The translations under genes and the position numbers were made by a program. The notes under the pieces are model-generated. The model was given only the letters and a program-made list of their open reading frames with translations. It was not told the DNA's origin and made no database searches. Shown here piece by piece: positions 10,992 through 57,442 of a DNA stretch of 64,000 nucleotides (its first letter is position 1; the number at the start of each line of letters is the position of its first letter). Source of the stretch: Sphingobium sp. (GTDB lineage Bacteria; Pseudomonadota; Alphaproteobacteria; Sphingomonadales; Sphingomonadaceae). The stretch is taken from positions 1-64,000 of the forward strand of contig JALCRK010000013.1 in assembly GCA_022652485.1 (NCBI GenBank), given 5' to 3'.

Positions 10992-11096
10992 TAGAGCATC
11001 GTGCGCAAAAGTGGGAACCGGTTTTGCGCAAAAAACGATGCGACACCAAAAATATAGAGCGCGCGTCCTGCGTCAGATTTAACGCAGCGCGCTCTA
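10992..11096. repeat. Family A two-hairpin dispersed element, copy A1 (105 bp)
   Basis: TAGAGCATCGTGCGCAAAAGTGGGAACCGG...ACGCAGCGCGCTCTA; matches 57338 and, inverted, 28393. Confidence 0.88.
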
Positions 11097-12080
11097 GAAA
11101 TAAGCGCCGAACGCTTCCTTCGCACTTTCGGAAGGCACAGTGACGTGCTGCATATAATCCGACGACTCGACGGGATAGATGAATTTCTCGATGTCGATCT
11201 GGTTGGTGAAGAAGATATTTTCGTACCTTCGCCCCATGATCCCGAAGTAGAGCTGCAATACGCCACCTACATAGATAGCCTTTTTCTTCAGGACATCCCG
11301 GATATGCAGGCCCAGCGGCATGGCATAGGAACCGCACGAGAGCAAAGCCAGATCGAAGTCGATCGAAGCCAGCTGCTCCTTCAGATATTCAGTCGTCTGA
11401 AACCAGTCGTCATGCGGATAGTATTCCTCTGGAAGCCCCGCGTAGGTGATCGGCGTTTTGAGTATCTTCAACTCAAATTCGGGATAAATATAGTTTCGGA
11501 AAAACCCGTGACGGTTGTGAAAATTGCTTTCGATGCTTTGCGAAAACGGAGAAACGACCAGAACCTTCTTCCCCGTCAAGGTTTTCTCAAACGCCCGGAA
11601 AAGCGTATCCGTACCGAGCACGATACGCTCAATGAAATTATAGGGATAGAAGCGCACGCTCCCTCGTACGCCTTCAATGGAATCGATGATCGAATCCATA
11701 CTATCCTTTAACGGCAGGTCTCTGATGAAACTGGCATCGAGCATGTTCGGAAAATAGGTACTCAGCAGCTTGCTTCCGCACATCACCAGATCGGAACAGT
11801 CAGTATAGCATTTCAGGAGAGTGGTGCAGTAACGGATATATTTTTCTATATCATCCGATTTGTCATAATATCCATTGTACCGCTGGACGATCGGTAGATG
11901 CTGCATCAAGGAAGCCGGAAGCGCAAGTGTGCCATCCGGGCTGCCCGATGCCACATATTCGATCACCGCGTCTGTATCACTGCCTCCGATACGCGCCAGA
12001 AACATGGGATCTTCTGCGTTTATCATGGACACTGCGGAATCATGGCATGACTGCCATTCAGCAACGAAATCAACCGCCAT
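11094..12080 (-). CDS. Hypothetical protein resembling GT-D-fold/glycan-cluster proteins
   Basis: 328 aa; FLARIGGSDTDAV near the N-term and LLSCGSYAMPLGLHIRDVLKKKAIYVGGVLQLYFGIMGRRYE near the C-term, a pattern I associate with glycan-cluster hypothetical proteins. Confidence 0.55.
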   Translation of the reverse strand: MAVDFVAEWQSCHDSAVSMINAEDPMFLARIGGSDTDAVIEYVASGSPDGTLALPASLMQHLPIVQRYNGYYDKSDDIEKYIRYCTTLLKCYTDCSDLVMCGSKLLSTYFPNMLDASFIRDLPLKDSMDSIIDSIEGVRGSVRFYPYNFIERIVLGTDTLFRAFEKTLTGKKVLVVSPFSQSIESNFHNRHGFFRNYIYPEFELKILKTPITYAGLPEEYYPHDDWFQTTEYLKEQLASIDFDLALLSCGSYAMPLGLHIRDVLKKKAIYVGGVLQLYFGIMGRRYENIFFTNQIDIEKFIYPVESSDYMQHVTVPSESAKEAFGAYF

Positions 12081-12462
12081 AATTACCCCCGCTCACACAC
12101 CGGCTTTCACTTTCGAAAAAGCGCCCCGCAAGCCAGGAATGTTTATATCAACAATATCAATACACATGATTCATAATCGTGACTCGATTAGATAATTTTC
12201 CCATCATGTCAATACATGACGTGTGCGGAAAATATATGAACATTACAATAGATTCAAATAACAATTGATTCTATTATATTTATTGAACCGAAAAAATCAT
12301 AATTCCGCCGCCATGTATAGTTAACACGAGGGGACTCCCGGCACCGGGACTTCCGACAGAAGCGACACGGATATTGTTGTCGGCCCGCAACAGGCGGCCG
12401 CAACACAGCAGCAGCCTCCTCGCCATCGAGGCGAAGAGGAGGGATTTATCGGCTCTGTGAAA

Positions 12463-12538
12463 TGGTGGGCGCGGTAGGGATTGAACCTACGACCCCACCC
12501 GTGTGAAGGGTGTGCTCTACCACTGAGCTACGCGCCCC
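12463..12538 (-). tRNA. tRNA-Val (anticodon CAC), CCA encoded
   Basis: Reverse complement GGGGCGCGTAGCTCAGTGGTAGAGCACACCCTTCACACGGGTGGGGTCGTAGGTTCAATCCCTACCGCGCCCACCA folds as a cloverleaf. Confidence 0.95.
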
Positions 12539-12659
12539 GATAAGGGAAGCAGCGCATTGGCATCGTGCAGCGGGCGTGTCAAGCCGATGCGGCATGGCGG
12601 CGCGCGCCAAATGCGGCGCCTGCTTGAACCCGCGCCGCATTCTGCCCATATGGCGCATC

Positions 12660-13226
12660 ATGAACGCAGACACCTCCTCCGCCCTGCCCAAATGGCACGG
12701 CACCACCATCCTCTCCGTGCGCAAGAATGGCCGGGTCGTCGTCGCGGGCGACGGTCAGGTCAGCATGGGGCCGACGATCATGAAGCCCAATGCGCGCAAG
12801 GTACGCCGCCTGCATGACGGCTCGGTCATCGGCGGCTTCGCGGGCGCGACGGCCGACGCCTTCACCCTGTTCGAGCGGCTCGAAGCCAAGCTGGAGCGCC
12901 ACAGTGGCCAGCTGATGCGCGCGGCGGTAGAGCTGGCGAAGGACTGGCGCACGGACAAATATCTGCGCAATCTGGAGGCGATGATGATCGTCGCCGACAA
13001 GGACGCGACGCTGATCCTCACCGGCAATGGCGATGTGCTGGAGCCGGTGGACGGCATCGCGGCGATCGGCTCGGGCGGCAACTTCGCCCTCTCCGCCGCG
13101 CGCGGCCTCACCGAATATGAGGCGGATGCGGAAGTCATTACGCGCAAGGCGATGGCGATCGCCGCCGATCTCTGCGTCTATACCAACGCGAATGTCACCC
13201 TTGAGGCGCTCGATAGCGCGTCCTGA
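12660..13226 (+). CDS. hslV: ATP-dependent protease subunit HslV
   Basis: [24 protein letters not shown]; followed by hslU. Confidence 0.96.
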
Positions 13227-13235
13227 GGTTAGTAC

Positions 13236-13341
13236 CGCACCAGCCCCCTCCCCCTCCCAACCTCCCATAGGATACCATATCGGGTGGTTGGGAGGGGGAG
13301 AGGGCTGGCACCGAAACCTGAAATCCCCGCGAGGGGATTTC
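13236..13341. repeat. Family B composite palindrome, copy B1 (between hslV and hslU)
   Basis: Long inverted repeat around the CCTCCCATAGGATACCATATCGGG loop, then hairpin GAAATCCCCGCGAGGGGATTTC. Confidence 0.85.
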
Positions 13342-13370
13342 AAAACAAGAGCACCCCGAGAGTTTCCATA

Positions 13371-14672
13371 ATGAACCCAGCCCTCACCCCCAAGGCGATC
13401 GTCGCCGCACTGGACGAGCACATCATTGGCCAGCAGGACGCCAAGCGCGCGGTCGCCGTCGCGCTCCGGAACCGCTGGCGCAGGCAGCAGCTCAGCGCGG
13501 AGCTGCGCGACGAGGTGACGCCCAAGAACATCCTGATGATCGGCCCCACCGGCTGCGGCAAGACCGAAATCAGCCGCCGCCTGGCGAAGCTCGCAGACTC
13601 GCCATTCGTCAAGGTCGAGGCGACCAAGTTCACCGAGGTCGGCTATGTCGGCCGCGATGTCGAGCAGATCGTGCGCGATCTGGTCGAGGAAGCGGTGCGG
13701 CTGGAGCGGGACCGTCGGCGCGAGTCCGTCCGCGCTGCGGCGACGGATGCGGCGATGGAGCGGCTGCTGGACGCATTGACCGGCAAGGAAGCGAGCCAGG
13801 CCACCCGCCTCGCCTATCGTCAGCGCATCGAGTCCAACCAGATGAATGATGCCGAGGTCGAGATCGAGGTGGCGGATACGCCCAATATGCCGATGGAAAT
13901 CCCCGGCATGGGCGGCCAGGTCGGCATGATTAACCTGAGCGACCTGATGGGCAAAGCCTTCGGGCAACAGCAGAAGAAGCGCCGCAAGATGCGCGTCACG
14001 GAGGCGTGGGACAGGCTGGTCGAGGAGGAGCAGGACAAGCGCCTCGACGCCGAGGATCTCAATCGTGCCGCCGTGCGCGATGCCGAGCAGAACGGCATCG
14101 TGTTCCTCGACGAGGTCGACAAGATCGCGGTTTCGGACGTGCGCGGCGGCTCCGTCAGCCGCGAGGGCGTGCAGCGCGATCTGCTGCCGCTGATCGAGGG
14201 GACCACGGTGGCGACCAAATATGGGCCGTTGAAGACCGACCATATCCTCTTCATCGCATCCGGCGCGTTCCATGTCGCGAAGCCGAGCGACCTGCTGCCC
14301 GAGCTGCAGGGCCGCCTGCCGATCCGGGTGGAACTGAAAGGCCTCACGGAGGACGATTTCGTCGCCATCCTGTCCGACACCAAGGCGAGCCTCGCCGAGC
14401 AGTATAAGGCGCTGCTCGCCACCGAGGGCGTGACGATCGATCTCACCGAAAGCGGCATCCGCGGCATCGCCCGCGTCGCGGCGGAGGTGAACGAGCAGAT
14501 CGAGAATATCGGCGCGCGCCGCCTGCAGACCGTGATGGAAAAGCTGTTGGAAGACGTGAGCTTCGACGCAGAAAACCGCGCCGGCGAGACTTTGGTGATC
14601 GACGGCGCCTATGTCGACGCCCAGCTCTCCAGCATCTCGCGCAATACGGACCTGAGCAAATATATCCTTTGA
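13371..14672 (+). CDS. hslU: ATP-dependent protease ATPase subunit HslU
   Basis: [27 protein letters not shown]-terminal [12 protein letters not shown]. Confidence 0.97.
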
Positions 14673-14685
14673 GGCGCTATTTGAT

Positions 14686-14765
14686 CGTCATCCCCGCGCA
14701 AGCGGGGATCCAGAGTATAACAGGCGAACTCTCGACGATGGATTCCCGCGTTCGCGGGAATGACG
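14686..14765. repeat. Family C inverted repeat pair, copy C1
   Basis: CGTCATCCCCGCGCAAGCGGGGATCC ... GGATTCCCGCGTTCGCGGGAATGACG. Confidence 0.85.
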
Positions 14766-14783
14766 AAATCTTATGGACAATGG

Positions 14784-17669
14784 TCACTTGCCGCCAGGCA
14801 GCACCACCACCGAATAGCTCTTGCGATCCACCAGATATTTCGCGGCGAGCGCGCGCAGTTGCTCCGGCGTCACCGTCAGCATGTCGCGCGGCATCGCGTT
14901 CATCGCGGTGACGTAGCGCCGGTCGATCGCCCCGCCCTCCATCTGGTTCATCCAGTAGGCGTTGCCGGTGCTGGCGCGCATCAGCAACTGCCGCATCGGC
15001 GCGAGCACGCGTTGCAGCTCGTCCGCGCTCACCGGCTTCGCTGCCAGATCGGCTGCGATCTCGCGCATGAACCGGAAGAAATACGCGGTGCTGGAAGGCT
15101 TGAGCTGGCTGAGCGCCAGAATATAGCCCTGCCCCTTGTCGAAACCAAGCGGCCAGTCCGATTGCGCGCTGGGGGAATAGGCGACCCCCTCTACCGCGCG
15201 CAATTTCTCGAACAGCCGGTCGCTGATGATCTGCGCCAGTATCTCCAGCTGATGCCCCTCGCGCATGTTGCGGAACCCCGCGCCGGTCGGCCAGGCGATG
15301 GCGGCGGCGGCCTGATCGGCATCGCCCGTGTGGCGCAGCACCAGCGGCGTACCGTTATGCTTCGGGAAACGGATCTTGCGGCTCGCCCCCGCAATGGGCC
15401 GCTCAGGGCGCGGCGGCAGCGCGCCGAAGGTCGCCCCCACCGCCGTGATCGCCTCTCCCGGTTTCACATCGCCAAACACCTGCACCTCGATCGGCCCGGA
15501 CGCCAGAATCGGCTCCCAGAAGGCGCGGAATGTATCGGGCGTCAGCGCCGCGATCTCGGCCTTCTCGGGCGTGTGGAAGCGCATGTCCTTTTTGCGCAGC
15601 AGCCACACGAGGTCATGCGCCAGCACCCCGCCCGCGCTCGCCGATGCGCTGTCATAGGCGGCGAGCAGCCCGGCCTTCGCCCGCTCGACCGGCTCCGCCG
15701 CCCAGCCGGGCGCATAGAGCTTCGCCGCGAACAGGCGCAGCTGGTCCTTATAGTCCGCCGGGCGGGTCAATGCCGCCAGCTCGAACGCATCGTCATCGAC
15801 GCTGAAATCGAAGCCCAGCCGCCGTGCGTTGGTCAGTTCATCAAGCTCGCGCTGGCCGAGCTTGCCGATGCCGTTCGCCGCCAGCACATAGCCCGCCGCC
15901 CATGTCGGCTGGGCCTGTTTTGGCGAGAGATCGCGCAGGCCGTGGCCGAAACGGACGTTCACCCGCACCTTGCCGCTCTCGCCATTATTGGCGAACAGCG
16001 TCATCTTCACGCCATTGGCAAAGGTGATGAACTCCATGCCCAGCGCGCCCGCGGGCACGCGCGAGACCACCTTGCCCTGCGGCGGCAGCGCGGGCAGGTC
16101 GTCCATCGACACGGTGCTGGCCTTGATCCGCACGCCCTGCGCGGCGCTCACCGGGGCGGAGAGCGCGGCGGCGAGGCGTGCTTCCGCGCCCGCATCCGCC
16201 AGCGGCAGCACCAGCATTGCGCGCATCGCGTCGCCGCTGAACATCCGCCGCGTCGCGTCGAGCATATAGCCAGGTGTCATGATACCGCGCGCGCCGCGAT
16301 AGATATCGAGCGCCGCCTGCGCCGTCACCGCCGTCTCGCGGATATCGACCGCGCTGACGATATTGTCCGCTTGGGTCGCGCTTGCCTCGGTATCCTGATT
16401 TTCGACATCGACTGCGAGATTGGTCTCGAACGCCTTATATTCGCGGTCGATCTCGGCCTCGCTCGCGGGCGCCGCCTTGGCGTCCTCGATGATCGCGCGC
16501 ACCTGGCCCAGCGCCTGTTCCCACCCCTTGTCGGACGGCAAGATGCTGACGAAAGTGCCGTTGGCGGAGCGGCTGACATCGTCCGCCTCGATCCCCGCCT
16601 GTAAAAAGGCGGAGCCGGGGCGGCGGGCGGCTTCCTCCAGCCGCCGGTTGATCATCTGGATCGCCACCGTATCGGCCAGTTTGCGCTGGTTATAGACGAT
16701 GGTGTCCGCCTTCGCCTGCCACGGCCGCAGCCATACGAGCGAGAGCGTGACAGGCGCGGCGGGCTGCACCACCACAGCGCTGCTCCGCGCGCGCGGGTCG
16801 GGCTTGCCGAAATCGGGCGCGGATGCGGCCGGGCCTTCCGCCTTCCAGTCCGCGAAGTGGCGCACGATCAAGGCCTCCAGCGCCTTCGGGTCGGCATCGC
16901 CGGAGATCGAGATCACGACATTCTCGGGCCGATACCAGCGGTCGTGGAATGCGCGCAGCGAGTCGTCGGTCGCGGCAGTGAGGCTCTGCGTCGTGCCGAT
17001 GGGCGCATGGCTGCCGAGCGGCTGCCCGGCGAAGAACAGCGCGCGGCTGGCGTCCTCAACCCGGCTCGCCGCGCCCGCACTCTCCCGCATCTCGGCGAGC
17101 ACGATCGCCCGTTCCGCCTCCACCGCCGAAGGCACGATATTGGGGTCGCTCGCCATGCCGGAGAGGATCTTGAGGCTCTCCCCGATACTGTCCGGCGTCG
17201 CATTGGGCAGATCGAGCGCATAGGTGGTCGCGGTCGGGGTCGTCTGCGCGTTGCTGTCCGAGCCGAAGCTCACGCCGAGGCGCTGCCACAAGCGTTTCGA
17301 CTCTCCATCGGGCACGAATTTCGAGCCGCGAAAGGTCAGATGCTCGATGAAGTGCGCATAGCCCGACTCTTGCGGTCGCTCATACAGCGACCCCGCGTCC
17401 ACCCGCATCCGGATCGAGACCTGCCCCGGCGGCACGCCATTGCGGCGGATCGCATAGCGCAGGCCATTGGGCAGGGTGCCGAACAGCCAGGCGGTATCGA
17501 TCGGTACGTCGCTGTTCTGATAGAGCCACGGCCGCGCGGGTTGCACGGAGGCGGCTGCGACGGCAGGCTTCGTTCCCTTGACCGGAACCGGACGCGCCTC
17601 CGCCCCGCTCCACAACAGTGACAAAGCTGCAACGGAGCAGACGAGACGCGGCGCGAAGGATCGGATCAT
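14784..17669 (-). CDS. M16-family zinc metalloprotease
   Basis: 961 aa, signal peptide, inverted zinc motif HFIEH, two peptidase-like halves. Confidence 0.92.
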   Translation of the reverse strand: MIRSFAPRLVCSVAALSLLWSGAEARPVPVKGTKPAVAAASVQPARPWLYQNSDVPIDTAWLFGTLPNGLRYAIRRNGVPPGQVSIRMRVDAGSLYERPQESGYAHFIEHLTFRGSKFVPDGESKRLWQRLGVSFGSDSNAQTTPTATTYALDLPNATPDSIGESLKILSGMASDPNIVPSAVEAERAIVLAEMRESAGAASRVEDASRALFFAGQPLGSHAPIGTTQSLTAATDDSLRAFHDRWYRPENVVISISGDADPKALEALIVRHFADWKAEGPAASAPDFGKPDPRARSSAVVVQPAAPVTLSLVWLRPWQAKADTIVYNQRKLADTVAIQMINRRLEEAARRPGSAFLQAGIEADDVSRSANGTFVSILPSDKGWEQALGQVRAIIEDAKAAPASEAEIDREYKAFETNLAVDVENQDTEASATQADNIVSAVDIRETAVTAQAALDIYRGARGIMTPGYMLDATRRMFSGDAMRAMLVLPLADAGAEARLAAALSAPVSAAQGVRIKASTVSMDDLPALPPQGKVVSRVPAGALGMEFITFANGVKMTLFANNGESGKVRVNVRFGHGLRDLSPKQAQPTWAAGYVLAANGIGKLGQRELDELTNARRLGFDFSVDDDAFELAALTRPADYKDQLRLFAAKLYAPGWAAEPVERAKAGLLAAYDSASASAGGVLAHDLVWLLRKKDMRFHTPEKAEIAALTPDTFRAFWEPILASGPIEVQVFGDVKPGEAITAVGATFGALPPRPERPIAGASRKIRFPKHNGTPLVLRHTGDADQAAAAIAWPTGAGFRNMREGHQLEILAQIISDRLFEKLRAVEGVAYSPSAQSDWPLGFDKGQGYILALSQLKPSSTAYFFRFMREIAADLAAKPVSADELQRVLAPMRQLLMRASTGNAYWMNQMEGGAIDRRYVTAMNAMPRDMLTVTPEQLRALAAKYLVDRKSYSVVVLPGGK

Positions 17670-17718
17670 CCCGCCCAGTCATAGCCGCGATTCGATGAAC
17701 CGCCACTGAGTATCTGAT

Positions 17719-17866
17719 TCAAAATCCGCAATAGGAGCGGATTTTGGGTTCGGCACCAGCCCGCTCCCCCTCCCAGCCTCCCGATATGGTATCCTATGGG
17801 AGGCTGGGAGGGGGAGCGGGCTGGTGCCGCACATCCGAAACGCGGCGAAGCCGCCTGTTTCGGATC
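17719..17866. repeat. Family B composite palindrome, copy B2 (inverse orientation of B1)
   Basis: CAAAATCCGCAATAGGAGCGGATTTTG hairpin, GGCACCAGCCCGCTCCCCC...GGGGGAGCGGGCTGGTGCC stem, TCCGAAACGCGGCGAAGCCGCCTGTTTCGGA hairpin. Confidence 0.85.
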
Positions 17867-17872
17867 AAATAA

Positions 17873-19204
17873 TCAACCGACCCGCTGCACCGCCCCCTTA
17901 TACGCGCCGACGCTCTTCTTCCGGCGCGGGCGGAAGCGACGGGCGTCGTCGCCCTGCGCCCCTTGCTCGCTGCGCCCACCACGCTCGCGATGCTGACGCG
18001 GCTGCTGCGGCCGGGGCGGACGGGCCTCGGCCCCCTTGCGCGGGGCGGGCTTGGGCAGGTTGCGCACCAGCTCCGCCATGCCTTCGGGCAGCGGCACGAT
18101 CTCGCTCTGCGTCCGCGTCAGCCGCTCGATCGCCTTGAGATAGGACCGTTCGTCATCCGACACGAGGCTGATCGCGATGCCTTCCTGCCCCGCGCGCCCG
18201 GTCCGGCCGATGCGGTGGACATATTGATCCGGGTTGTTCGGGATCTCGAAGTTGATGACATGGCTGAGGCCCGAAACATCGATCCCGCGTGCGGCGATGT
18301 CGGTCGCGACCAGCAGCTTGATCTGCCCGTTGCGAAACGCCTGCAAAGCCGCCGTGCGCTGCGCCTGAGACTTGTCGCCGTGGATGGCGAGCGAATCGAT
18401 CCCCGCCCCCGCCAGCGCGCGCACCACCTTGTCCGCGCCATATTTGGTGCGGGTGAAGATGAGCGCGCGGTCGATCTCCTCGCCGCGCAGGATATGCGTG
18501 AGCAACGCTTGTTTCTCGCTCTGGTTAACATGATAGGCGCGCTGCACGATCCGCTCCGCCGTGGTGGCGGGCGGCGTCACCGAAACCGTGACGGGATCGC
18601 GCAGGAACTGTTTTGCCAGCCCGGCGATCTCCTTCGGCATCGTTGCCGAGAAAAACAGCGTCTGCCGCTCCTTGGGCACGCAGGAGACGATCTGCTTCAC
18701 CGGATGGATGAAGCCCATGTCCATCATCTGGTCCGCCTCATCGAGCACCAGCACCTCGACACCCTTCAGGTGAAATGCCTTCTGCGCGAGCAGATCGAGC
18801 AGCCGGCCCGGCGTCGCCACCAGCACATCGACGCCTTGGGAAAGCTGGCGGATCTGCTTGTGGATCGGTACGCCGCCGAACACGGTCGCGACATTCAATG
18901 GCAGGAACCGCCCATAATCGCGAAAGCTCTGCGCAATCTGCGCCGCCAGCTCACGCGTCGGCGAGAGCACCAGCACGCGGCAGGTGAGCGGCGGGGTATG
19001 CTTGGTGTCGCGCGCCAGACGGTCGAGCGAAGGCAGCGCGAACGCCGCTGTCTTGCCGGTGCCGGTCTGGGCGATGCCGCACAGATCCTTGCCGGACAGC
19101 ACGGCGGGGATCGCCTGTTGCTGGATCGGGGTGGGGTTCACATAACGCTTGGCGGTCAACGCCTTGATGATCGGCTCCGCAAAGCCAAAATCCTTGAATT
19201 CCAT
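17873..19204 (-). CDS. DEAD-box ATP-dependent RNA helicase
   Basis: AQTGTGKT, LDEADQMMDMGF, SAT, HRIGRTGRAG; basic C-terminal tail. Confidence 0.94.
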   Translation of the reverse strand: MEFKDFGFAEPIIKALTAKRYVNPTPIQQQAIPAVLSGKDLCGIAQTGTGKTAAFALPSLDRLARDTKHTPPLTCRVLVLSPTRELAAQIAQSFRDYGRFLPLNVATVFGGVPIHKQIRQLSQGVDVLVATPGRLLDLLAQKAFHLKGVEVLVLDEADQMMDMGFIHPVKQIVSCVPKERQTLFFSATMPKEIAGLAKQFLRDPVTVSVTPPATTAERIVQRAYHVNQSEKQALLTHILRGEEIDRALIFTRTKYGADKVVRALAGAGIDSLAIHGDKSQAQRTAALQAFRNGQIKLLVATDIAARGIDVSGLSHVINFEIPNNPDQYVHRIGRTGRAGQEGIAISLVSDDERSYLKAIERLTRTQSEIVPLPEGMAELVRNLPKPAPRKGAEARPPRPQQPRQHRERGGRSEQGAQGDDARRFRPRRKKSVGAYKGAVQRVG

Positions 19205-19503
19205 ACTATTACTCACAAAATATGCACGTCGCGCGCGCGCCATTCATCATGGCGCACACGCTCGGCGGGTGTCCGAAACGACCCGCGTGAATTGGGAAGC
19301 CTCATAAAGCAAACGCGGGGTATTGGCCGGTTCCGTCGCCCTCATTCGGGCCGGAGCGTTCACGCCGCCAATCGCAATAATGGCCCTGAGGCCGGTTGCC
19401 GCGCTACGGCGCATATGGCGGCACCCTCCCAACAAAGCAAGCCTTATCCCCGAACAACAGGATTTTGCTTGAAACAGTGCGGCACAAGGGCCACATGCTC
19501 CTC

Positions 19504-20085
19504 ATGCTGATCGAGACCGAAAAGACGCCGAATCCGGCCACATTGAAGTTCCTTCCCGGCCGCAAGGTGATGGCGGCAGGCACGCGCGATTTCGCCAATG
19601 CCGAAGAGGCAGAGGCGTCTCCGCTCGCGGAAGCACTGTTCACGCTGGGCGATGTCACGGGCGTTTTCTTCGGCGCGGACTTTATTTCGGTGACGATCGC
19701 GCCGGGCGGCGACTGGTCCGCCACCAAGCCCGATGTGCTCTCGATCCTGCTTGATCATTTCTCGGCGGACATGCCGCTGTTCCGCGCGGGCACGGCGGCG
19801 GGCATCTCGGTGCCGACCGAAGAAGCCGACAACGCCTATACCGACGACCCCGCCGATGCCGAGATCGTGGAGCAGATCCGCGAGCTGATCGACACCCGCG
19901 TGCGCCCCGCCGTCGCCAATGACGGCGGCGACATCGTCTATCGCGGCTTCGACAAGGGCAAGGTGTACCTGCGGATGCAGGGCGCCTGTTCCGGCTGCCC
20001 CTCCTCCACCGCGACGCTGAAGAACGGCATAGAACAGCTTTTGAAGCATTATGTGCCGGAGGTGACGGAAGTCCTCGCCGTCTGA
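19504..20085 (+). CDS. NifU/Nfu-family Fe-S scaffold protein
   Basis: MLIETEKTPNPATLKFLPG and C-terminal CSGCPSSTATLKNGIEQLL. Confidence 0.94.
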   Translation: MLIETEKTPNPATLKFLPGRKVMAAGTRDFANAEEAEASPLAEALFTLGDVTGVFFGADFISVTIAPGGDWSATKPDVLSILLDHFSADMPLFRAGTAAGISVPTEEADNAYTDDPADAEIVEQIRELIDTRVRPAVANDGGDIVYRGFDKGKVYLRMQGACSGCPSSTATLKNGIEQLLKHYVPEVTEVLAV

Positions 20086-20825: not shown

Positions 20826-20826
20826 T

Positions 20827-22379: not shown

Positions 22380-22386
22380 AATTTTT

Positions 22387-27207: not shown

Positions 27208-28386
27208 ATGCCTGATACCCAGCTGCGTGTCGCGCTTTTCAGCGGCAACTATAATTATGTGAAGGATGGCGCCAATCAGGCGCTCAACAAGCTGGTGGCC
27301 TATCTGCTGCGGCAGGGCGTGGTGGTTCGCGTCTATTCGCCTACAACAAATACCCCCGCGTTCGCGCCCACGGGCGATCTGGTGAGCGCGCCGTCATGGC
27401 CGATCCCGAAGCGCCCGGAATATCAGATCCCGCTCGGGCTGCTGCCCGGCCTCAAGCGTGATCTGCGCGCCTTCGCGCCCAACCTCATCCATGTCTCCAG
27501 CCCCGATCCGCTGGGCCACGGCGCGCTCAAATATGGCCGCAAGCACGGCCTGCCGGTGGTCGCCTCGGTCCACACCCGGTTCGAGACCTATCCGCGTTAT
27601 TATGGCCTTGCCTTTCTGGAACCTCTGGTCGAGGCGATGCTGCGCCGCTTCTACCGCCGTTGCGACGCGATCATGGCCCCGTCCGAGGCGCTGGCGCAGA
27701 TGCTGCGCGATCAGCGCATGAGCTATGATGTCGGCGTATGGACGCGCGGCATAGACGACAGCATCTTCACCCCCGCCAACCGCGATCTCGCATGGCGCGA
27801 GAGCATCGGCCTCGGCGGCGACGCTCCGGTTATCGGCTATATCGGCCGTCTGGTGATGGAAAAGGGGCTGGATGTCTTTGCCGACACCATCGATGAGCTG
27901 CGCAGGCGCCAGGTCCAGCATCAGCTGCTGGTGATCGGCGACGGACCGGCCCGCAGCTGGTTCGAGCATCGTCTGCCGGGCGCCCGGTTCGTCGGCTTTC
28001 AAATGGGGGCTGATCTCGGCCGCGCGGTCGCCAGCATGGATATGCTGTTCAACCCCTCCGTCACCGAGGCGTTCGGCAATGTCACGCTGGAAACGATGGC
28101 CTGCGGCCTGCCCGTGGTCGCGGCGCAGGCAACGGGCAGCGACAGCCTCGTCAGGGATGGGGTCAACGGCCGCCTGATCCGCCCCGGCGCCATCGGCCAG
28201 TTCGCCGACGCGCTGGAGCACTATTGCACCGACACGGAGCTGCGCGCCCGCAATGGCGCGGCAGGGCTGGAGCTTTCCCGCCGCAACCGCTGGGATGCCG
28301 TCAATCAGGCGATGCTGGATACCTATCTGCGCGTGTCCGCCCAGCGGCGGCGGGGCGCGCTGGCCCAGCGCAGCCCGGTGCCCTGA
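27208..28386 (+). CDS. Glycosyltransferase family 1/GT4
   Basis: RVALFSGNYNYVKDGANQAL..., GYIGRLVMEKGLDVFADTI, PSVTEAFGNVTLETMACGLPVV. Confidence 0.92.
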   Translation: MPDTQLRVALFSGNYNYVKDGANQALNKLVAYLLRQGVVVRVYSPTTNTPAFAPTGDLVSAPSWPIPKRPEYQIPLGLLPGLKRDLRAFAPNLIHVSSPDPLGHGALKYGRKHGLPVVASVHTRFETYPRYYGLAFLEPLVEAMLRRFYRRCDAIMAPSEALAQMLRDQRMSYDVGVWTRGIDDSIFTPANRDLAWRESIGLGGDAPVIGYIGRLVMEKGLDVFADTIDELRRRQVQHQLLVIGDGPARSWFEHRLPGARFVGFQMGADLGRAVASMDMLFNPSVTEAFGNVTLETMACGLPVVAAQATGSDSLVRDGVNGRLIRPGAIGQFADALEHYCTDTELRARNGAAGLELSRRNRWDAVNQAMLDTYLRVSAQRRRGALAQRSPVP

Positions 28387-28392: not shown

Positions 28393-28496
28393 TAGAGCGC
28401 GCCGCGCTACATCTCACGCAGCAGGCGCGCTCTATGTATTTGTTGTCGCATCGTTATTGCCAAAAACCGGTGCCCACTTTTTGGCACGATGCTTTA
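28393..28496. repeat. Family A two-hairpin dispersed element, copy A3 (104 bp, inverted relative to A1)
   Basis: TAGAGCGCGCCGCGCTACATC...CCGGTGCCCACTTTTTGGCACGATGCTTTA. Confidence 0.85.
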
Positions 28497-28937
28497 AGCC
28501 AGCACTTTCCGGTCGGTCATCCGGCGGCAATACCACCATAAAAATGCTATGAGCGCCAGAATGACGAGCGGCATCGCCTGGTTTGCGGGCGTATCCAGCG
28601 CGGCGGGGGGAGACGCGCTCCACTGATAGGCGAAGCTCGCCAGCGCGGCGGCGAACGACAGCGCGAACGCGCCCACCGCATGGCGTGAGCGCAGCAGCAT
28701 CAGCACCGAACCGGCGACCGAGCTCCACACGCCCAGCGGCCAGCAGATCTGCGCCCACAGCGGAAAGGAATCGATCCAGCCGAGCAGCACCTGCGGATCT
28801 CCCATGTTCCTGAGATAGTCGCTGTTGCGCGTGCGCGTCATGACATAGTCATATCCGCCGAAAGCATTCCAGATTAGGAATATTATCGTTATAATCCAAT
28901 ATGTTAAATTGGCAGAATGTTTGTGCTCCCCCGTCAT
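28494..28937 (-). CDS. Hypothetical membrane protein
   Basis: About four hydrophobic segments (YWIITIIFLIWNAFGGYDYVM...). Confidence 0.75.
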   Translation of the reverse strand: MTGEHKHSANLTYWIITIIFLIWNAFGGYDYVMTRTRNSDYLRNMGDPQVLLGWIDSFPLWAQICWPLGVWSSVAGSVLMLLRSRHAVGAFALSFAAALASFAYQWSASPPAALDTPANQAMPLVILALIAFLWWYCRRMTDRKVLA

Positions 28938-49800: not shown

Positions 49801-50797
49801 CTCCATCCGCACACCAGCAGGAGTGTCCATCATGCGCGACGCCGAACCGGGCCTTACGTCATCGGCAGAGTTTCTTTCGCTCGCCCGTGGCCTGTATCAT
49901 TTTTCCGTCGCGCCGACGGGCGATGCGGCAAGGGACCATCCCGCTTCCCTGCCCGCGTTGCAGATTGCGGTCGCGCCCGGCCAGAACCACAATGACATCG
50001 AATGCGTATCCTCGCCGGGCGCGGAGCATATGTGGCTGTGCACCGGACAGGACAGCGTCATCCTCAAGGTCAACCGGGACAAGGCCCGGGTCGTCGTCAT
50101 CCTGCTGACCGCGCCTGGGCTCGCGCCGCTGCAGATCGATGTCCGCAAGCTCGACGGGGAGCAGGGAAGCCAGGCCACCCCGCAGCCCGCCACCGTGGCG
50201 GTACAAGCCGCGAACGGAACGGCGCCGGTGCCGATGCGCGGCGCCACCCTGCTCCGGTCCCAGATCGTGACGCATGTCGAATATATGGGCGACGTGATCG
50301 GGATGGATCAGGGCTGGACGGGTGCGCCCGATGGCGGCCGGGCGATAGAGTGCCTGACGATCACGCCAATCGCGGGCATCGCGCCCGCATCCATCGAGTA
50401 TAAGGCGGTCAGCGCCGCGGGTCAGGAGACACCGTGGATCGAGCAGGGCCGCCCCTGTGGATCGCGCGGCATGGCGATGCCGCTCGCCGCATTCGCGCTC
50501 AGGCAGAAGCCGCTGGGCGCGCCGCGCTTCACCTGCGAATATTCGGGCAAATTCTCGTCCGGCCGCATCGTCGGACCGCTGCAGGACGGAGAATTGTGCC
50601 GCAGCCCGATACCCAGCGACCGGCTGGAGGCCATCTGGTTTCACATCATCGACGCCGCCGGCCCCTCTGCGGCCATCAGCCCGGCCATGAGCCCCGCCCT
50701 GAGTGGCGCGGCTCCGGGCGGCGCGCCCGAGCCGGTAACGCACAGCGCGCGAAGTGCCGGCACCGGGTTCAGCGTTTTCCGCGATATTCAGGCGTGA
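46805..50797 (+). CDS. Multidomain glycosyltransferase: N-terminal TPR-like and beta-rich region, GT2, GT4-like, C-terminal ChW-like repeats
   Basis: TAIVIPIYRGVEETRACIESVL...NDASPE...NLGFPGAANRGM (GT2); GAIGEQKGQNILLACARQA...GLPVMAFDIGAIAERL (GT4). Start MNSREFS chosen; upstream ORF start is 46751. Confidence 0.85.
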   Translation: MNSREFSGAGPSRNELKGDVLSAWLDAPQDLARLIGVIHHAIAERQPDLALRFADRAWRLAPESALLCQITMSLQLQCGDPHQALRVFKALPPSAISSGIAALHIDALRLSGAIAEAEEQLEQYLALFATPPDSPLADAASALLEHSDLMGWIGVGPDMKLTGHIRCAEGGNTIVLALTLDGQDEEALMIPAANGWADTSALGNIAAVDGMALVPQGAEGRLLGSCVKIAGNFSLTGAVQIDGRRISGSLRLAWLPHDVPPLLYLNKGGHDEQVPLSADPAEPGTYGFDIPMGALDMLRLSEVWLEVGLPDGRRALLTGAPVALKPIRPYRPARKQLPARTPLMDQTAIVIPIYRGVEETRACIESVLLTVDDDQKVILVNDASPEADMQPMLVAFTDDPRVTLLRNGKNLGFPGAANRGMAAAPAHDIILLNSDTQLFHGWLDRLQAHARAARDIATVTPLSNAGSIASYPGGEENSCDEKTARLLDNLAAHANEGQHVDVPTGVGFCMFIRRACIEQIGGLDETLFAQGYGEENDFCRRASAHGWRHVIAGDVFVWHRNGVSFGDTRRNLMQRNGAVLAARHPEYDDLVRAFHAEQPLAPLRRALDMARLRRETRPIVLLLSLALDGGVGRHVEDRIKALEAQGYAPLLLRPDRDSQRLHISASGALPYPDLAFRFADEGGLFAAMLDALPVHHIEFHHFLGMNQRFVEHCLALDVPVDVYIHDYSWYCPRLSLLGAYGIYCGEPGLAACKSCIRRAGSELHDALAPEALQARSLRWLSRARSVFAPCQDVAARYAAIFPDVTFSVMPWEDSPPAPRAVEHSGAVPHRIAVIGAIGEQKGQNILLACARQAALHDLPLEFVVIGFAEDEEALLRTGKVFVTGRYAPEELPSLLRREAPSGIFLPSVTPETWSYTLSEALATGLPVMAFDIGAIAERLRNGRTPHRLVPLDTSTSRLNEGLMTIAAAEAQEGAPFAAPAAPIAAAPPAPSAPSAQLPLSIRTPAGVSIMRDAEPGLTSSAEFLSLARGLYHFSVAPTGDAARDHPASLPALQIAVAPGQNHNDIECVSSPGAEHMWLCTGQDSVILKVNRDKARVVVILLTAPGLAPLQIDVRKLDGEQGSQATPQPATVAVQAANGTAPVPMRGATLLRSQIVTHVEYMGDVIGMDQGWTGAPDGGRAIECLTITPIAGIAPASIEYKAVSAAGQETPWIEQGRPCGSRGMAMPLAAFALRQKPLGAPRFTCEYSGKFSSGRIVGPLQDGELCRSPIPSDRLEAIWFHIIDAAGPSAAISPAMSPALSGAAPGGAPEPVTHSARSAGTGFSVFRDIQA

Positions 50798-50829
50798 TCG
50801 CGGATACCGCCCGCCAGCCATAGGAGTGC

Positions 50830-51426
50830 ATGTTGGAACCGATCATAATCAACGCCGGTTGCGGCGCGTCCGGCGCGGAACGCCTGCCGGGCCTTTTCGC
50901 CCACTGGCGGCATGTGCGGGTGGATGTCGATCCGCTGGCCCGGCCGGATATCATAGCCGATATCACCGATCTCTCGCCGTTCGGCGACAACTTCGCCGAT
51001 GCACTATGGACGTCGCACTGCATCGAGCATCTTTATCAGCATCAGGTCGTGCGGGCGCTGGCTGAATTCCGGCGCGTGCTGAAAAGCGACGGCTTCGCCA
51101 TCATTACCGTGCCTGATATTCAGGCCATCGCGCGATATGTGGCGGAAGACCGCATCATGGAAACGATCTACGAATCCCCCGCGGGTCCGATCTCCGCCCA
51201 TGACATTCTGTTCGGACACGGAAAATCGGTTGCGGAGGGCCATCTTCACATGGCCCACAAGACGGCGTTTACCCCTTCTTCCCTGATCGCGGCCATGCAG
51301 GCGGCGGGCTTTGCCGATCTCGTGATCCGCCGTCGTCCGAATTTCGAACTGGCCGCCGTCGGCCTCAAGACGCCCCAGCCTGATCAGTCCCGCATCCAGA
51401 TGCTGATGAACGCCCTTCAGCTATGA
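50830..51426 (+). CDS. SAM-dependent methyltransferase
   Basis: NAGCGASGAERLPG...RVDVDPLARPDIIADITDLSPFGDNFADALWTSHCIEHL. Confidence 0.85.
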   Translation: MLEPIIINAGCGASGAERLPGLFAHWRHVRVDVDPLARPDIIADITDLSPFGDNFADALWTSHCIEHLYQHQVVRALAEFRRVLKSDGFAIITVPDIQAIARYVAEDRIMETIYESPAGPISAHDILFGHGKSVAEGHLHMAHKTAFTPSSLIAAMQAAGFADLVIRRRPNFELAAVGLKTPQPDQSRIQMLMNALQL

Positions 51427-52661
51427 TCTATCTGTTCATCCACCAGAATTTTCCGGGGCAGTACAAACATCTCATCCGGCATCTGGCCGACGACCCCGCC
51501 AATACCGTCTATTTCATCTCCCAGCCCAACGCCAACTGGATGCAGGGGATCGTCAAGCTCGTCTATTATCCCGACCTCGCCTCGCCACTGCAATGCCACC
51601 CCTATACCGTGGATTTCGAGCTGGCCATCCGTCATGGCACCGCCGTCGCCAGCGCGCTGCGGATGCTGAGGGATCAGGGCGTCATCCCCGATGTCATCGT
51701 CGGCCACAGCGGGTGGGGCGAGACGCTGTTCGTCAAGGATGTCTATCCCGAAGTGCCCCTTCTCGCCTATTTCGAATTCTTCTATCGGCACGAGGGCGTC
51801 GATGTTGATTTCGATCCCGAATTTCCGCCCTCCCCCGATGACAGCGCGCGCCTGCGCGTGCGCAACGCGGTCAACCTGCTGAGCTTTCAATCGGCCGACT
51901 GGGGCAACGCGCCGACCCGGTGGCAGCAAAGCCTGTATCCCGAGGAAATGCGGGCGCGCATCAGCGTGATCCACGAGGGGATCGATACGGACGCGATCCG
52001 GCCCGACCCGGACGCATGGTTGCAGCTGGACCGCGACAATCTCGTCCTTACCCGCAACGACGAGATAATTACCTATGTCGCGCGCAATCTGGAGCCCTAT
52101 CGCGGCTTTCATGTGTTCATGCGCGCCCTGCCCGAAATCCAGCGCCGCCGCCCGGATGCGCATGTCCTGATCGTGGGCGGGGATGAGGTGAGCTATGGCA
52201 GCCCGTTGCGGTCTGGCCTGACCTACCGGCAGCATATGCTGGCCGAGCTGGAAGGGAAAGTGAACCTCGACCGCGTACACTTTCTTGGCCAGCTGCCGTA
52301 CGAGAATTATGTCAGCCTGCTCCAGATATCATCCGCGCACGTATATTTGACCTATCCCTTCGTCTTGTCCTGGTCTTTTCTGGAGGCGATGGCGGCGGGA
52401 TGCGTGGTGATCGGATCCAGAACGCCGCCCGTCGAGGAAGTTATTGAGGATGGCGTCAACGGATTTCTGGTCGATTTCTTTTCTACCGACGAACTCGTCG
52501 ATAAAATTGAAACTATTCTTGACGATAAGGCGCTGTCCGAACAAATACGGGACCAGGGGCGGCAGACCGTTATAAAGAAATATGATCTTCATACCCGAAT
52601 GCTGAAACGATGGCATCGGCTTCTGGATGGCTTGGCCGCGGCCCCGGAGTCAGCTTCGTGA
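51423..52661 (+). CDS. Glycosyltransferase family 4
   Basis: LFIHQNFPGQYKHLIRHLA; RNLEPYRGFHVFMRALPEIQRRRPDAHVLIVGGDEVSYG; ATGA overlap with the methyltransferase. Confidence 0.92.
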   Translation: MIYLFIHQNFPGQYKHLIRHLADDPANTVYFISQPNANWMQGIVKLVYYPDLASPLQCHPYTVDFELAIRHGTAVASALRMLRDQGVIPDVIVGHSGWGETLFVKDVYPEVPLLAYFEFFYRHEGVDVDFDPEFPPSPDDSARLRVRNAVNLLSFQSADWGNAPTRWQQSLYPEEMRARISVIHEGIDTDAIRPDPDAWLQLDRDNLVLTRNDEIITYVARNLEPYRGFHVFMRALPEIQRRRPDAHVLIVGGDEVSYGSPLRSGLTYRQHMLAELEGKVNLDRVHFLGQLPYENYVSLLQISSAHVYLTYPFVLSWSFLEAMAAGCVVIGSRTPPVEEVIEDGVNGFLVDFFSTDELVDKIETILDDKALSEQIRDQGRQTVIKKYDLHTRMLKRWHRLLDGLAAAPESAS

Positions 52662-52712
52662 TGATGAACGCAACCCGCACGAATTCACGATTCTACAACA
52701 GGCGAGATGATC

Positions 52713-53123
52713 ATGGATAAATTGCCCAGTTACTCCTTCCTCCTCAACGAACGTATGGTCATCCCTTCGGAAAACACCTCCTATTTCGCCGTGGACGAGC
52801 ATCTCTTCTATTTCCTGATGAAGGATTATGTTTCCCGCATCCATGTCGATGAAAAATGGTATGTTCGCTCGAACCCCGATATCGCGGAAGCCATCCGGAA
52901 CGGTATGACCGCCAAGGACCATTATTGCCGGTTCGGCTATTTCGAGCACCGGATGCCTTACGCGATCGAGGTGCAGGAGGAATGGTATCTGGATGCCTAT
53001 CCGGACATCCGCGACGCGGTGGAACAGAATATCTTCATATCCGGCCAAAGCCATTTCGACATCATAGGCTATCGCGAAGGGCGAGTGCCTTCCCCCGGCT
53101 TCAGCCTTCAGACCAGCGCATAG
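52713..53123 (+). CDS. Small protein with two NPD(I/V)...HY..xG..E.R repeats, unknown function
   Basis: DEKWYVRSNPDIAEAIRNGMTAKDHYCRFGYFEHR and QEEWYLDAYPDIRDAVEQNIFISGQSHFDIIGYREGR. Confidence 0.7.
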   Translation: MDKLPSYSFLLNERMVIPSENTSYFAVDEHLFYFLMKDYVSRIHVDEKWYVRSNPDIAEAIRNGMTAKDHYCRFGYFEHRMPYAIEVQEEWYLDAYPDIRDAVEQNIFISGQSHFDIIGYREGRVPSPGFSLQTSA

Positions 53124-53225
53124 AGCGATTTCCAGTCAAATGACGCCATTTGACGATTCAGAAATCGCGGTAAAACAAAATCTTAGAGATATCGATCTGC
53201 TCCAATCAGATCGGAAACCGCTCTA
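53121..53225. repeat. Family A-type two-hairpin element, diverged copy A4 (105 bp)
   Basis: TAGAGCGATTTCC...GAAATCGC hairpin then TTAGAGATATCGATCTG...CAGATCGGAAACCGCTCTA hairpin; same length and architecture as A1/A2. Confidence 0.75.
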
Positions 53226-53311
53226 ACATTTTGGGAAGTGTGGGCGTTCGGGTTCGAATAATACTGTAATTTACTTGCGAAATACCGTATCGAATATTGC
53301 TGGGGGTCTTC

Positions 53312-54925
53312 ATGGAACATGACAATGCCAGTCCGGACAGGCGTACCGCACGCCAGGCGTCACGGTCGTTCGACGAGCGCGCCTATCTGCTCGCCAATCC
53401 CGATGTTGCCGCCGCAATCGTACGGGGCGAGGTGGCATCGGGGCAGGATCATTATTTCCGCTATGGCGCAGCCGAGGCGAGAGACCCTTTCAACCCCGAT
53501 CTCGATCCGGCAGGACAGGTCATTCTCACCACGACCGCCTTCGCCGCAGATGCCGCGCACCTGACCCATTTCCTCGAAACCATAATCATTTCGCGCAGCG
53601 GCGGCATTTTCATCGTCGGGTGGATCGACGATTCCAGCTCCGCGCTGGAGCGGGTTCGGCTCACGGCGCCCGGCTGGCGCCTGTCGATCGACGAAAGCTC
53701 CATCGCCCGCGTGAGACGCGCGGATGTGGAAGACGCGCTGGGGAAGCCCATCGCCCATTCCTTCGGCTATTTCGGTTTCCATTTCGCCGGGCGCGAGCTG
53801 GGCCGGACCGGCGAATTGCAGGTGGAGTTTTTCACCGCTTCGGGCGCGAGGGCGGAATGCACCTGCCAGGTGCGGATGGTGGAAGACACCGAGCTTCGCG
53901 ACATCGTGTTGCAATATCTGGCCGAGGCGCATCATTTCGGCAACCAGCAAATCAAGGCGATCGCCTGCGTCGACCGGATGATCGGCGGGCAGCTGGTCAA
54001 TCTCAACACCCACATCACCCGCAATATCGTCGCCGCGCCCTATGTCGAATGGTTCGGCAATCCCGCCGCCCGGCCGAAGGGATCGATCATCGTCTGCCTG
54101 TATGGCCGGGCCGAATATCTGTTTCTCCAGAACGCCCTGCACTCCGGCGGCGCGGGCATAGAGGATTATGAATTCATCTTCGTATCGAACAGCCCCGAGC
54201 TTTCCGAGCGCCTGCTGAACGACGCGCGGGCATCCTCGTTGCTATACGGCGTGAACCAGGGCGTGGTGATCCTTCCCGGCAATGCGGGCTTTGGCGCCGC
54301 CAACAACGCAGCGGTGCGCGCAAGCCGCAGCGACCGGGTGGTCATCATGAACCCCGACGTATTCCCGCGCGAGGCGGGCTGGGCTGCGAAGCACAGCGCC
54401 CTCCTCTCCGCGAGACCCGCCAGCGAGACACGGATTTTCGGCGTTCCGCTATATTATGACGATGGTTCGCTGATGCATGGCGGCATGTACTTCGAGATCG
54501 ACCACGGCCTGTCGATCGAAGGCTTCAGTATGCAGCAATCGCAGCTGATCCGCGTGGAGCATTATGGCAAGGGCGCGCCCGGGGAGGGCTCCGAATTCGC
54601 CCGGCCGCGCCCGGTTCCCGCGGTGACGGGCGCGTTCATCTCGGCCGAGCGCCAATGGTACGAGACTCTCGGCGGCTTCACCGAGGATTATATCTTCGGC
54701 CATTATGAGGATGCCGACCTGTGCCTCAAAAGCATGGAGCGCGGCGTCGCGCCCTGGCTGCAGGATCTGCATCTGTGGCATCTGGAGGGCAAGGGCTCGA
54801 CACGGCGGCCGGTCCATGAGGGCGGATCGCTCGTCAATCGCTGGCTGTTCTCGACCCGATGGGGCGGCATGGTGAGAGACGGTCTTCTCGGCCCGCACCC
54901 GACCCACGATCTGCTGAAGATTTGA
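53312..54925 (+). CDS. GT2-like glycosyltransferase with N-terminal NPDV/HY repeat and beta-sandwich domain
   Basis: FDERAYLLANPDVAAAIVRGEVASGQDHYFRYGAAEARDPF; SIIVCLYGRAEYLFLQNAL...GNAGFGAANNAAVRASRSDRVVIMNPDVFP. Confidence 0.85.
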   Translation: MEHDNASPDRRTARQASRSFDERAYLLANPDVAAAIVRGEVASGQDHYFRYGAAEARDPFNPDLDPAGQVILTTTAFAADAAHLTHFLETIIISRSGGIFIVGWIDDSSSALERVRLTAPGWRLSIDESSIARVRRADVEDALGKPIAHSFGYFGFHFAGRELGRTGELQVEFFTASGARAECTCQVRMVEDTELRDIVLQYLAEAHHFGNQQIKAIACVDRMIGGQLVNLNTHITRNIVAAPYVEWFGNPAARPKGSIIVCLYGRAEYLFLQNALHSGGAGIEDYEFIFVSNSPELSERLLNDARASSLLYGVNQGVVILPGNAGFGAANNAAVRASRSDRVVIMNPDVFPREAGWAAKHSALLSARPASETRIFGVPLYYDDGSLMHGGMYFEIDHGLSIEGFSMQQSQLIRVEHYGKGAPGEGSEFARPRPVPAVTGAFISAERQWYETLGGFTEDYIFGHYEDADLCLKSMERGVAPWLQDLHLWHLEGKGSTRRPVHEGGSLVNRWLFSTRWGGMVRDGLLGPHPTHDLLKI

Positions 54926-54959
54926 CCGTGCCATGCCCCAAGGTAGGAAAAGCGCGCCG

Positions 54960-56258
54960 ATGAAGATCCTGATGCTGAGCCTGTTTCATCCGGAGCTGGT
55001 GCGCGGCGGCGCCCAGCAGATATGCTACGAGCTTTTCGAGGGACTGAAGGGCGTCGAGGGTGTCGAGCCCATTCTTCTCTCGGCTGTCGATCCCAGCTTC
55101 AAGGCCTTGTACAAGGCCGGAGCGCGCATTACCGGCTTCGACGGCCGGCCGGGAGAATATATCTTCCTCGCGCGGGACTATGATTATTGGTGGCATCGCA
55201 GCGCCAGCCATTTTCTGGTCGAAGCCTATGTCGAATTTCTCGAAACCATGCAGCCGGACGTGGTGCATTTTCACCATTTCCTGCTCTACGGCATCGATTT
55301 CGTAACGCTGACGCGGCGCACGCTGCCGAACGCGCGCATCATTTTCACGCTGCATGAATTCCTGACCATATGCGCCGCGGACGGGCAGATGGTGCGGCGC
55401 TCGGACAAATCCCTGTGCAGCCGCCCCTCGTCCGTTCGCTGTCACCAGTGCTTCCCGGAGCGCGGGCCGGAGGAGTTCTTCACCCGGGAGCTGTGGATGA
55501 AACGCCATCTCGCCGAGGTGGACATGTTCACCACCCCGACCCGCTTCATGCTGCGCCATTTTGAACAATGGGGCATTCCTCCGGCCAAGCTCACCTATGT
55601 CACCAATGGTCAGCCCGACTACAGCAAGGGCGAAACCCAGATCGAGCAACGCGAAAAGCGCAACCGCTTCGGCTTTTTCGGGCAGATGGTCGACAACAAG
55701 GGCGTCTGGGTGATCCTGCAGGCGGTCGCGCTGCTCCGCGCCGAGGGATTCACGGATTTCGTCGTGGAGCTGAACGGCGAGAACCTCAAATATGCGTCGC
55801 CCGAGCGGCGGGCCGAGATCGAGGGATTTCTCGAAAGTGAGCAGGAGCTTCCCTCCCATGAGCGGATTGTTCAGCTCAATGGCGGCTATCAGGTCGATCA
55901 GCTTTCGTACCGGATGGCGCGCGTCGACTGGTGCATCGTGGCGTCCGTCTGGTGGGAGGCGTTCGCGCTGGTGATTTCGGAAGCCTGGATGTTCAAACGG
56001 CCGGTGATCTGCTCCAACATCGGGGCAATGGCCGAACGCGTGGTGCACGAGCAAAACGGCCTGAACTTCGCGGTCGCGGACCCGCGCTCTCTTGCGGACA
56101 CCATCAAGCGCGCCTGCACCGAGCCGGGCTTGTGGGACAGGATCGTCGCCCAGATCACGCCGCCACCCGCGCGCGATGACATGGTGAACGGCTTCCTGGA
56201 TCTGTACCGCAGTGCCGCCATAACACAAAAAGAAGGAATGATGGGGGATGCCGCTTAA
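54960..56258 (+). CDS. Glycosyltransferase family 4
   Basis: KILMLSLFHPELVRGGAQQICYELFEGLK; RFGFFGQMVDNKGVWVILQAVALL; SVWWEAFALVISEAWMFKRPVICSNIGAMAE. Confidence 0.92.
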   Translation: MKILMLSLFHPELVRGGAQQICYELFEGLKGVEGVEPILLSAVDPSFKALYKAGARITGFDGRPGEYIFLARDYDYWWHRSASHFLVEAYVEFLETMQPDVVHFHHFLLYGIDFVTLTRRTLPNARIIFTLHEFLTICAADGQMVRRSDKSLCSRPSSVRCHQCFPERGPEEFFTRELWMKRHLAEVDMFTTPTRFMLRHFEQWGIPPAKLTYVTNGQPDYSKGETQIEQREKRNRFGFFGQMVDNKGVWVILQAVALLRAEGFTDFVVELNGENLKYASPERRAEIEGFLESEQELPSHERIVQLNGGYQVDQLSYRMARVDWCIVASVWWEAFALVISEAWMFKRPVICSNIGAMAERVVHEQNGLNFAVADPRSLADTIKRACTEPGLWDRIVAQITPPPARDDMVNGFLDLYRSAAITQKEGMMGDAA

Positions 56259-57330
56259 AGGGAAGATCGAGATATTCAACCACAGGAGCGTTTCCGGCTG
56301 GATCGCCTGCTATGGCACTCTGACAGAACCGCTCCTTGTCGAGATCGTCATCGACGGCGAGGTGATCGGGCAGGCTGAGACCTCGGGATACCGGGAAGAT
56401 GTTGCCCAGATGAACTTCGGCGACGGGCACTGCAGTTTCTCCATCGTTTTTCCCGAGGCTCTTACCGCGGATCAGTATAACCGGGCGAAATTGCGGATAT
56501 CGGGGAGCGATCTCTGCATCGAGCTGCCCCGTCCCATTCCGGAACCGGATTCGCATGGTCAGGATGCGGACTTGGGGCCATGCTCGCCAGTGTTTATCGT
56601 CGGATCACCGCGGTCGGGCACCAGCATCCTGGTGCAAAGCCTCGCGAGTGCGGGCTATAACGGGTTCTCCGAAGGGAATATCCTGGGACTCTCCAAGTCC
56701 ATTCAGGATTGCATAGACAGCTATTTCATCGCGAACGACCATAGCGAAGCTTCCACCCTGATCGGCAACATATCCCGCGAGGAACTGCAGGACCGCTTTT
56801 TCGAGACGATGAAGGGTCAGCTGGAAATGCTCAATCCGGTCAAACCCTGGTTCGACAAGACAGGCAATCCGGAGACTATATGGATCCTGAAGAGGATCAT
56901 GAAGGCATGGCCGACATCCAGGATCATTTTCGCGAAGCGCCGGGGCATAGAGAATATTATGTCGCGGATGCAGAAATTCCCCGAGCGCGATTTCCAGTAT
57001 CATTGTGAGGACTGGGCACGCAACATGAAGGCATGGCGCGATGTTCGCGACAGCCTCGACCCGGAGCGGATACTCGAGGTCGATCAATATGACATCGCTC
57101 AGGATCCCGTGGCGGTCAGCGAAAATATCGGCGCATTGCTGAATCTCGACCAGGACCAGATACACAATGTCCGCCACACGTTCGGCACCGACAGGCCGCA
57201 ACAATCGAGCGAGGGGTCGTTTCGGAAAAGGATGCGTTTCGCTGATACGGGATGGAGCGAGGAAGAGCGGTCTCTCTTTGTGCAGGAATGCGGCGTGGAA
57301 ATGCAGGCGTTCGGGTACGAGATGGATTGA
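56248..57330 (+). CDS. Sulfotransferase with N-terminal beta-sandwich domain
   Basis: PAPS P-loop-like VFIVGSPRSGTSILVQSLASAGYNGFSEGN; N-terminal SGWIACYGTLTEPLLVEIVIDGEVIG. Confidence 0.85.
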   Translation: MPLKGKIEIFNHRSVSGWIACYGTLTEPLLVEIVIDGEVIGQAETSGYREDVAQMNFGDGHCSFSIVFPEALTADQYNRAKLRISGSDLCIELPRPIPEPDSHGQDADLGPCSPVFIVGSPRSGTSILVQSLASAGYNGFSEGNILGLSKSIQDCIDSYFIANDHSEASTLIGNISREELQDRFFETMKGQLEMLNPVKPWFDKTGNPETIWILKRIMKAWPTSRIIFAKRRGIENIMSRMQKFPERDFQYHCEDWARNMKAWRDVRDSLDPERILEVDQYDIAQDPVAVSENIGALLNLDQDQIHNVRHTFGTDRPQQSSEGSFRKRMRFADTGWSEEERSLFVQECGVEMQAFGYEMD

Positions 57331-57337
57331 CCGGCAT

Positions 57338-57442
57338 TAGAGCACCGTGCCAAAAAGTGGGAACCGATTTTTGACAATAAACGATGCGATAACAAATAGA
57401 TAGAGCGCGATCTCTGCGTCCGATTAAACGCAGCGCGCTCTA
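57338..57442. repeat. Family A two-hairpin dispersed element, copy A2 (105 bp)
   Basis: TAGAGCACCGTGCCAAAAAGTGGGAACCG...ACGCAGCGCGCTCTA. Confidence 0.88.

Follow-up and report, generated by a model that had tools for sequence, protein, structure and literature searches.

In the 64,000-nucleotide stretch of Sphingobium sp. DNA analysed here (contig JALCRK010000013.1; hereafter the window), four short repeats each have a terminus that falls exactly on the stop codon of an adjacent gene, and the question raised by this locus is whether such elements are aimed at stop codons, supply them, or are left there by selection. The preliminary description of the window proposed either that insertion is aimed at stop codons or that selection favours insertions which close a reading frame cleanly, and the evidence favours a mixture of the two. 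The repeats are very probably non-autonomous IS630/Tc1-mariner-type MITEs of two related families, with YTAR as target and with a placement shaped by selection.

The four copies and their neighbouring genes

The coordinates and lengths first given for the four copies (105, 104, 105 and 105 bp) are correct, and so are the stop codons at 11094-11096 (-), 28494-28496 (-), 53121-53123 (+) and 57440-57442 (-), which are the terminal triplets TAG, TAA, TAG and TAG, respectively. The copies and the genes they adjoin are as follows, the single-TA site being the sequence obtained when the two flanks are joined with one TA.

10992..11096, + strand: copy A1, putative family A MITE (model E=6.6e-27; flanks atg before TA..TA and gaa after it)
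11094..12005, - strand: A1 stop gene, weak GT-D-like domain match; its TAG stop coincides with the right terminus of A1
27208..28386, + strand: glycosyltransferase, convergent partner at A2; its TGA stop lies a few bases short of A2
28393..28496, - strand: copy A2, family A, between convergent genes (model E=1.8e-21)
28494..28841, - strand: A2 stop gene; its TAA stop coincides with the hairpin-1 terminus of A2, and the single-TA site is also TAA
52755..53123, + strand: A3 stop gene; its TAG stop coincides with the left terminus of A3, and the single-TA site is TAA
53121..53225, + strand: copy A3, putative family B MITE; ends TAGAGCGATTTCC.. and TAGAGCGGTTTCC..
56248..57330, + strand: sulfotransferase, convergent partner at A4; stop TGA 7 bp before A4
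57338..57442, + strand: copy A4, also family A and flanked by convergent genes (model E=4.2e-21)
57440..58462, - strand: A4 stop gene; its TAG stop coincides with the hairpin-2 terminus of A4, and the single-TA site is TAA

A1, A2 and A4 are members of a single family (E 7e-27 to 4e-21 with the R1 model) and A3 of a second, and both families have the same two-hairpin, TAGAGC-ended plan. The reading of the four as copies of one element thus holds for A1, A2 and A4 and for the common plan, but not for A3 as a family member; the copy that is inverted is A2, relative to A1 and A4, and not A3 as had been described. The element itself is bounded by GAGC and GCTC, and the outer TA belongs to the target duplication. 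A1 has the hairpin-1 end on the left, the hairpin-2 end on the right and a duplicated TA outside each. The window copies (104-105 bp) are short and carry no transposase gene, they are predicted to fold strongly (-31 to -55 kcal/mol), and an Rfam scan of the window gave no match to them, only two tRNAs reaching the gathering score. Near-identical copies are found at scattered genomic sites.

Glycosyltransferase and sulfotransferase genes lie near A2-A4 (27208-28386 and 53312-57330). The A1 stop gene has no homolog among 94 Sphingobium genomes and the A4 stop gene only one (54%), which ends a few residues later with TAA; together these features suggest an accessory polysaccharide region. ARAGORN placed a tRNA-Ala at 53639-53731 inside a long gene, with no Rfam tRNA match, and this call is probably spurious.

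Distribution of the copies and their insertion target

The genome that contains the window is a 3.06-Mb draft of 62 contigs. Copies were gathered by a covariance model and whole-genome searches, which gave 80 full-length copies (20 from the home genome and 60 from eight congeners, those from related genomes not being fully independent of each other), and genes were called with a purpose-trained small codon-model (Markov) gene finder, 50 of them in the window. The covariance search, as proposed in the preliminary description, confirmed that the pattern extends well beyond the window: in 43 of the 80 copies (16/20 in the home genome) an element terminus coincides exactly with a gene stop, and in 5 of the 80 both termini serve two convergent genes. 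A second set from other records contained 22/56 copies on stops, 3 of these double. Among the 65 copies that coincide with a stop, 50 have convergent neighbours, counting 8 in which both ends carry a stop and 42 others. As an independent check, one (pTomTYG46a) of seven annotated plasmid records has a deposited CDS that ends on the element TAG, the copies in the others being intergenic. Stops occur about twice as often at the hairpin-1 end as at the hairpin-2 end (48 vs 23, p=0.004), an asymmetry that the explanation favoured here does not cover.

Among relatives, 31 of the 61 genomes searched contain family A, which is also present in records of Novosphingobium, Sphingopyxis and Sphingomonas and in a few other alphaproteobacterial ones; across the class it was detected in 5/190 genomes, the home genome counted. 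Five places in the home genome (L025, L027-L030) have a lone hairpin-1-like stretch of ~50 bp without hairpin 2, as if this were a separable module. At another copy (L021) the 25 bases upstream end in GGAGCGCGCTGCGT, which is the start of another hairpin-2 end and suggests nested or adjacent insertions.

The flanks of the copies point to YTAR as the target, with duplication of the TA: a pyrimidine precedes the first TA in 76/80 and a purine follows the last TA in 71/80. With the flanks brought together over one TA, 44 of the 48 gene ends read TAA or TAG, and where both terminal TAs of a copy are intact the joined-site stop is kept in 54/57. Predicted empty junctions were also used as queries against the genus. 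At three loci (L006, L008 and L012) element-free relatives have a TGA, TAA or TAG at the codon position of the stop in the occupied gene, while the junction alignments at L002 and L004 are too divergent for the stop position to be read; comparison with empty orthologous sites, suggested earlier as a check, was thus informative at three loci and readable at none of the window's own four copies. One of the three, the stop of a HesB/ErpA-like gene, is occupied in two Sphingobium genomes (L008 and L099), the other aligned orthologs being without a copy, and this shared site reflects either independent insertion or loss elsewhere.

The 44/48 joined sites and the same-codon stops in relatives at three loci show that the stop is mostly pre-existing and kept. 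The original claim that the terminus supplies the stop is therefore borne out as a coincidence in 4/4 window copies, but as an account of origin it probably applies to A1, where the joined single-TA site is TAC and the frame is then open for 67 codons further, so that insertion of A1 probably created the stop of gene 11094..12005.

The observed arrangement would follow if a transposase inserted the element at Y^TA^R with duplication of the TA. YTAR is a near-palindrome and reads as TAA or TAG in either direction. At a stop-codon target the TA would stay in place and be followed by the first base of the element, G, which would give TAG and leave the length of the gene unchanged; a TA common to two convergent genes would in the same way give TAG for both. 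Selection would then remove insertions in genes, promoters and operons, as judged from their absence or rarity, and the survivors would be those at the 3' ends of genes, for the most part where two convergent genes meet. In the GC-rich genome studied here, stops are about half of the YTAR sites available at such positions.

Targeting, selection and alternative explanations

As background for the observed placement we used the YTAR sites in 384 kb of the home genome. Stops account for 56% of YTAR-flanked copies but 14% of the non-coding background (OR 7.9, p=4e-13), and the enrichment of termini at stops, which the preliminary description proposed to tabulate against a background, is therefore real. 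The difference is much smaller at comparable positions: between convergent genes stops make up 54% of background YTAR sites against 71% observed (OR 2.1, p=0.03), and for sites no more than 30 bp from the 3' end of a gene the corresponding shares are 58% and 76% (OR 2.3, p=0.025). Inside genes there are no YTAR-flanked copies, compared with 161/498 background YTAR sites. Because the stop share of the background is already 54-58% at convergent and near-3' sites, a motif that is itself a stop on both strands, together with loss of harmful insertions, covers nearly all of the excess. The residual twofold excess may stem from errors in gene calling, from kinship among the copies, or from a preference that is real but mild. 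The expectation of one in three per copy under frame-blind insertion, taken as a strict null, gives p=0.012 for 4/4; on the observed shares, by contrast, the probability of four stops in four copies of one window is roughly 0.1 to 0.3, and the 4/4 is thus unremarkable.

These comparisons bear directly on active targeting, in which the transposase or a translation- or transcription-termination factor steers insertion to stops or, in transcribed genes, to the 3' end. The 16/20 home copies and the 56% against 14% are what such steering would give, and the odds ratios of 2.1-2.3 left at convergent and near-3' sites and the twice-occupied stop of the HesB/ErpA-like gene are also in its favour. However, autonomous IS630 copies of full length that share these termini are mostly off stops (one clear case on a stop, L360), some copies sit at YTAR sites away from stops, and the motif and the restriction to 3' ends cover most of the excess, so that we regard active targeting as quite improbable. 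A related proposal, that the transposition complex prefers stops or regions of transcription termination over and above YTAR and selection, as a built-in safe landing at convergent ends, is unlikely. What survives of the earlier suggestion of stop-targeted insertion is that the YTAR target itself is a stop on both strands; dedicated recognition of stop codons is not needed. In the same way, selection for clean ends of reading frames is upheld as far as insertions in or upstream of genes are absent or rare, while the stop was usually already present.

Copies at gene ends might instead have been kept for a function, as hairpin transcription terminators or as stabilisers of mRNA 3' ends. Convergent 3' ends are indeed favoured, the folds are strong (-31 to -55 kcal/mol), and the minus strand of the element has hairpin 2 followed by TATATTTTTGG. 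A terminator scan was nevertheless negative at A1 and A3, where a promoter scan found nothing either. Selection of hairpin 2 with its T-rich tail moreover predicts stops at the hairpin-2 end, the opposite of the 48 to 23 observed, and the near-identity of the copies implies recent movement; functional retention is in our judgement very doubtful. The weakest candidate is frame-blind insertion that truncates genes, with the element supplying the new stop. A1, with its TAC site and 67 further open codons, is of this kind, but truncation fits only 4/48 gene ends, 44/48 joined sites being stops already, and at three loci element-free relatives have the stop in the same place. Truncation as a general explanation is already contradicted, and we give it hardly any credence.

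The explanation by YTAR insertion and selection describes a transposon target that is near-harmless by construction, since YTAR is a stop on either strand and becomes TAG next to an element whose first base is G, the protein being left intact. Even two convergent genes at once can keep their proteins intact after insertion at a common stop TA. This would account for the frequent apparent supply of stops by such repeats, and it cautions against calling truncation.

Likely transposase partner and known systems

The termini connect the repeats with IS630-family elements. A 1052-bp IS630-family IS in S. lactosutens (G036) has the end TAGAGCATCGTGCC, in which 17 of the first 20 bases equal the A2/A4-type hairpin-1 end, and 16/20 terminal bases of IS630 copies in a second genome (G008) equal A3, whereas IS630 elements with other termini have 5-10 of 20 matching. 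A transposase of the subgroup with matching termini scores 147 bits against NF033545 transpos_IS630 (cut-off 100). Intact IS copies with both ends located also have Y..R flanks, and one of these (L360) lies on a stop. From the shared termini we infer that families A and B are IS630-related, and the termini together with the near-identical copies suggest mobilisation in trans: IS630 transposases that recognise GAGC-type termini would move both families, the expected mobiliser being an IS630 transposase with TAGAGCATCG termini. No transposase of the matching subgroup was found in the home draft genome (62 contigs). The IS630 of the home genome was rejected as partner, as its termini are TAGTGGATTGA. 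IS5/IS427-type transposases (PF13340) were considered since IS711 also uses YTAR, and were rejected as well, their inverted ends starting with TAGG- or similar and not TAGAGC. Two Sphingobium repeat families are in this way tied to likely IS630 partners.

In the literature searched we found no description of elements that target stop codons, and several known repeats can be compared with families A and B in other respects. RUP, thought to be moved by IS630-Spn1 and to use TA targets (PMC2229807), is likewise a 107-bp non-coding element that has termini in common with an IS630 element and inserts at TA (PMC2229807, PMC3049150), and it is also enriched between convergent genes (PMC3049150). RUP differs in its unrelated host, the likeness is one of description, and termini at stop codons are not described in the available portions of these reports. 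Among alphaproteobacterial palindromic repeats, Bru-RS1 and Bru-RS2 of Brucella (103-106 bp, two related types; PMC10800456) resemble our families in size and overall plan, compared from the papers alone, but they are described as IS711 insertion sites (PMC3163539) and not as IS630-mobilised. IS711 of Brucella shares the YTAR target and the TA duplication, and differs in being an 842-bp autonomous IS with 20-bp imperfect inverted repeats (PMC2266754). The Rhizobium-specific intergenic mosaic elements (RIME) are, as far as the available description goes, also alphaproteobacterial intergenic repeats (PMC2573895).

BOX, RUP, SPRITE and IS elements of the pneumococcus are reported to be enriched between convergent genes, which in the available part of that study is read as tolerated parasitic insertion (PMC3049150). 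BOX of Streptococcus pneumoniae comes close to the present case, with 36 annotated genes that have the stop inside a copy, at the extreme 3' end and with no clear truncation (PMC3049150); it differs in its modular structure and in that the repeat encodes the stop, and the available text gives no account in terms of a YTAR target (PMC3049150). Overall, the Sphingobium elements are very probably of the known IS630-type MITE kind, and what is new is the explicit explanation by the target site and its quantification.
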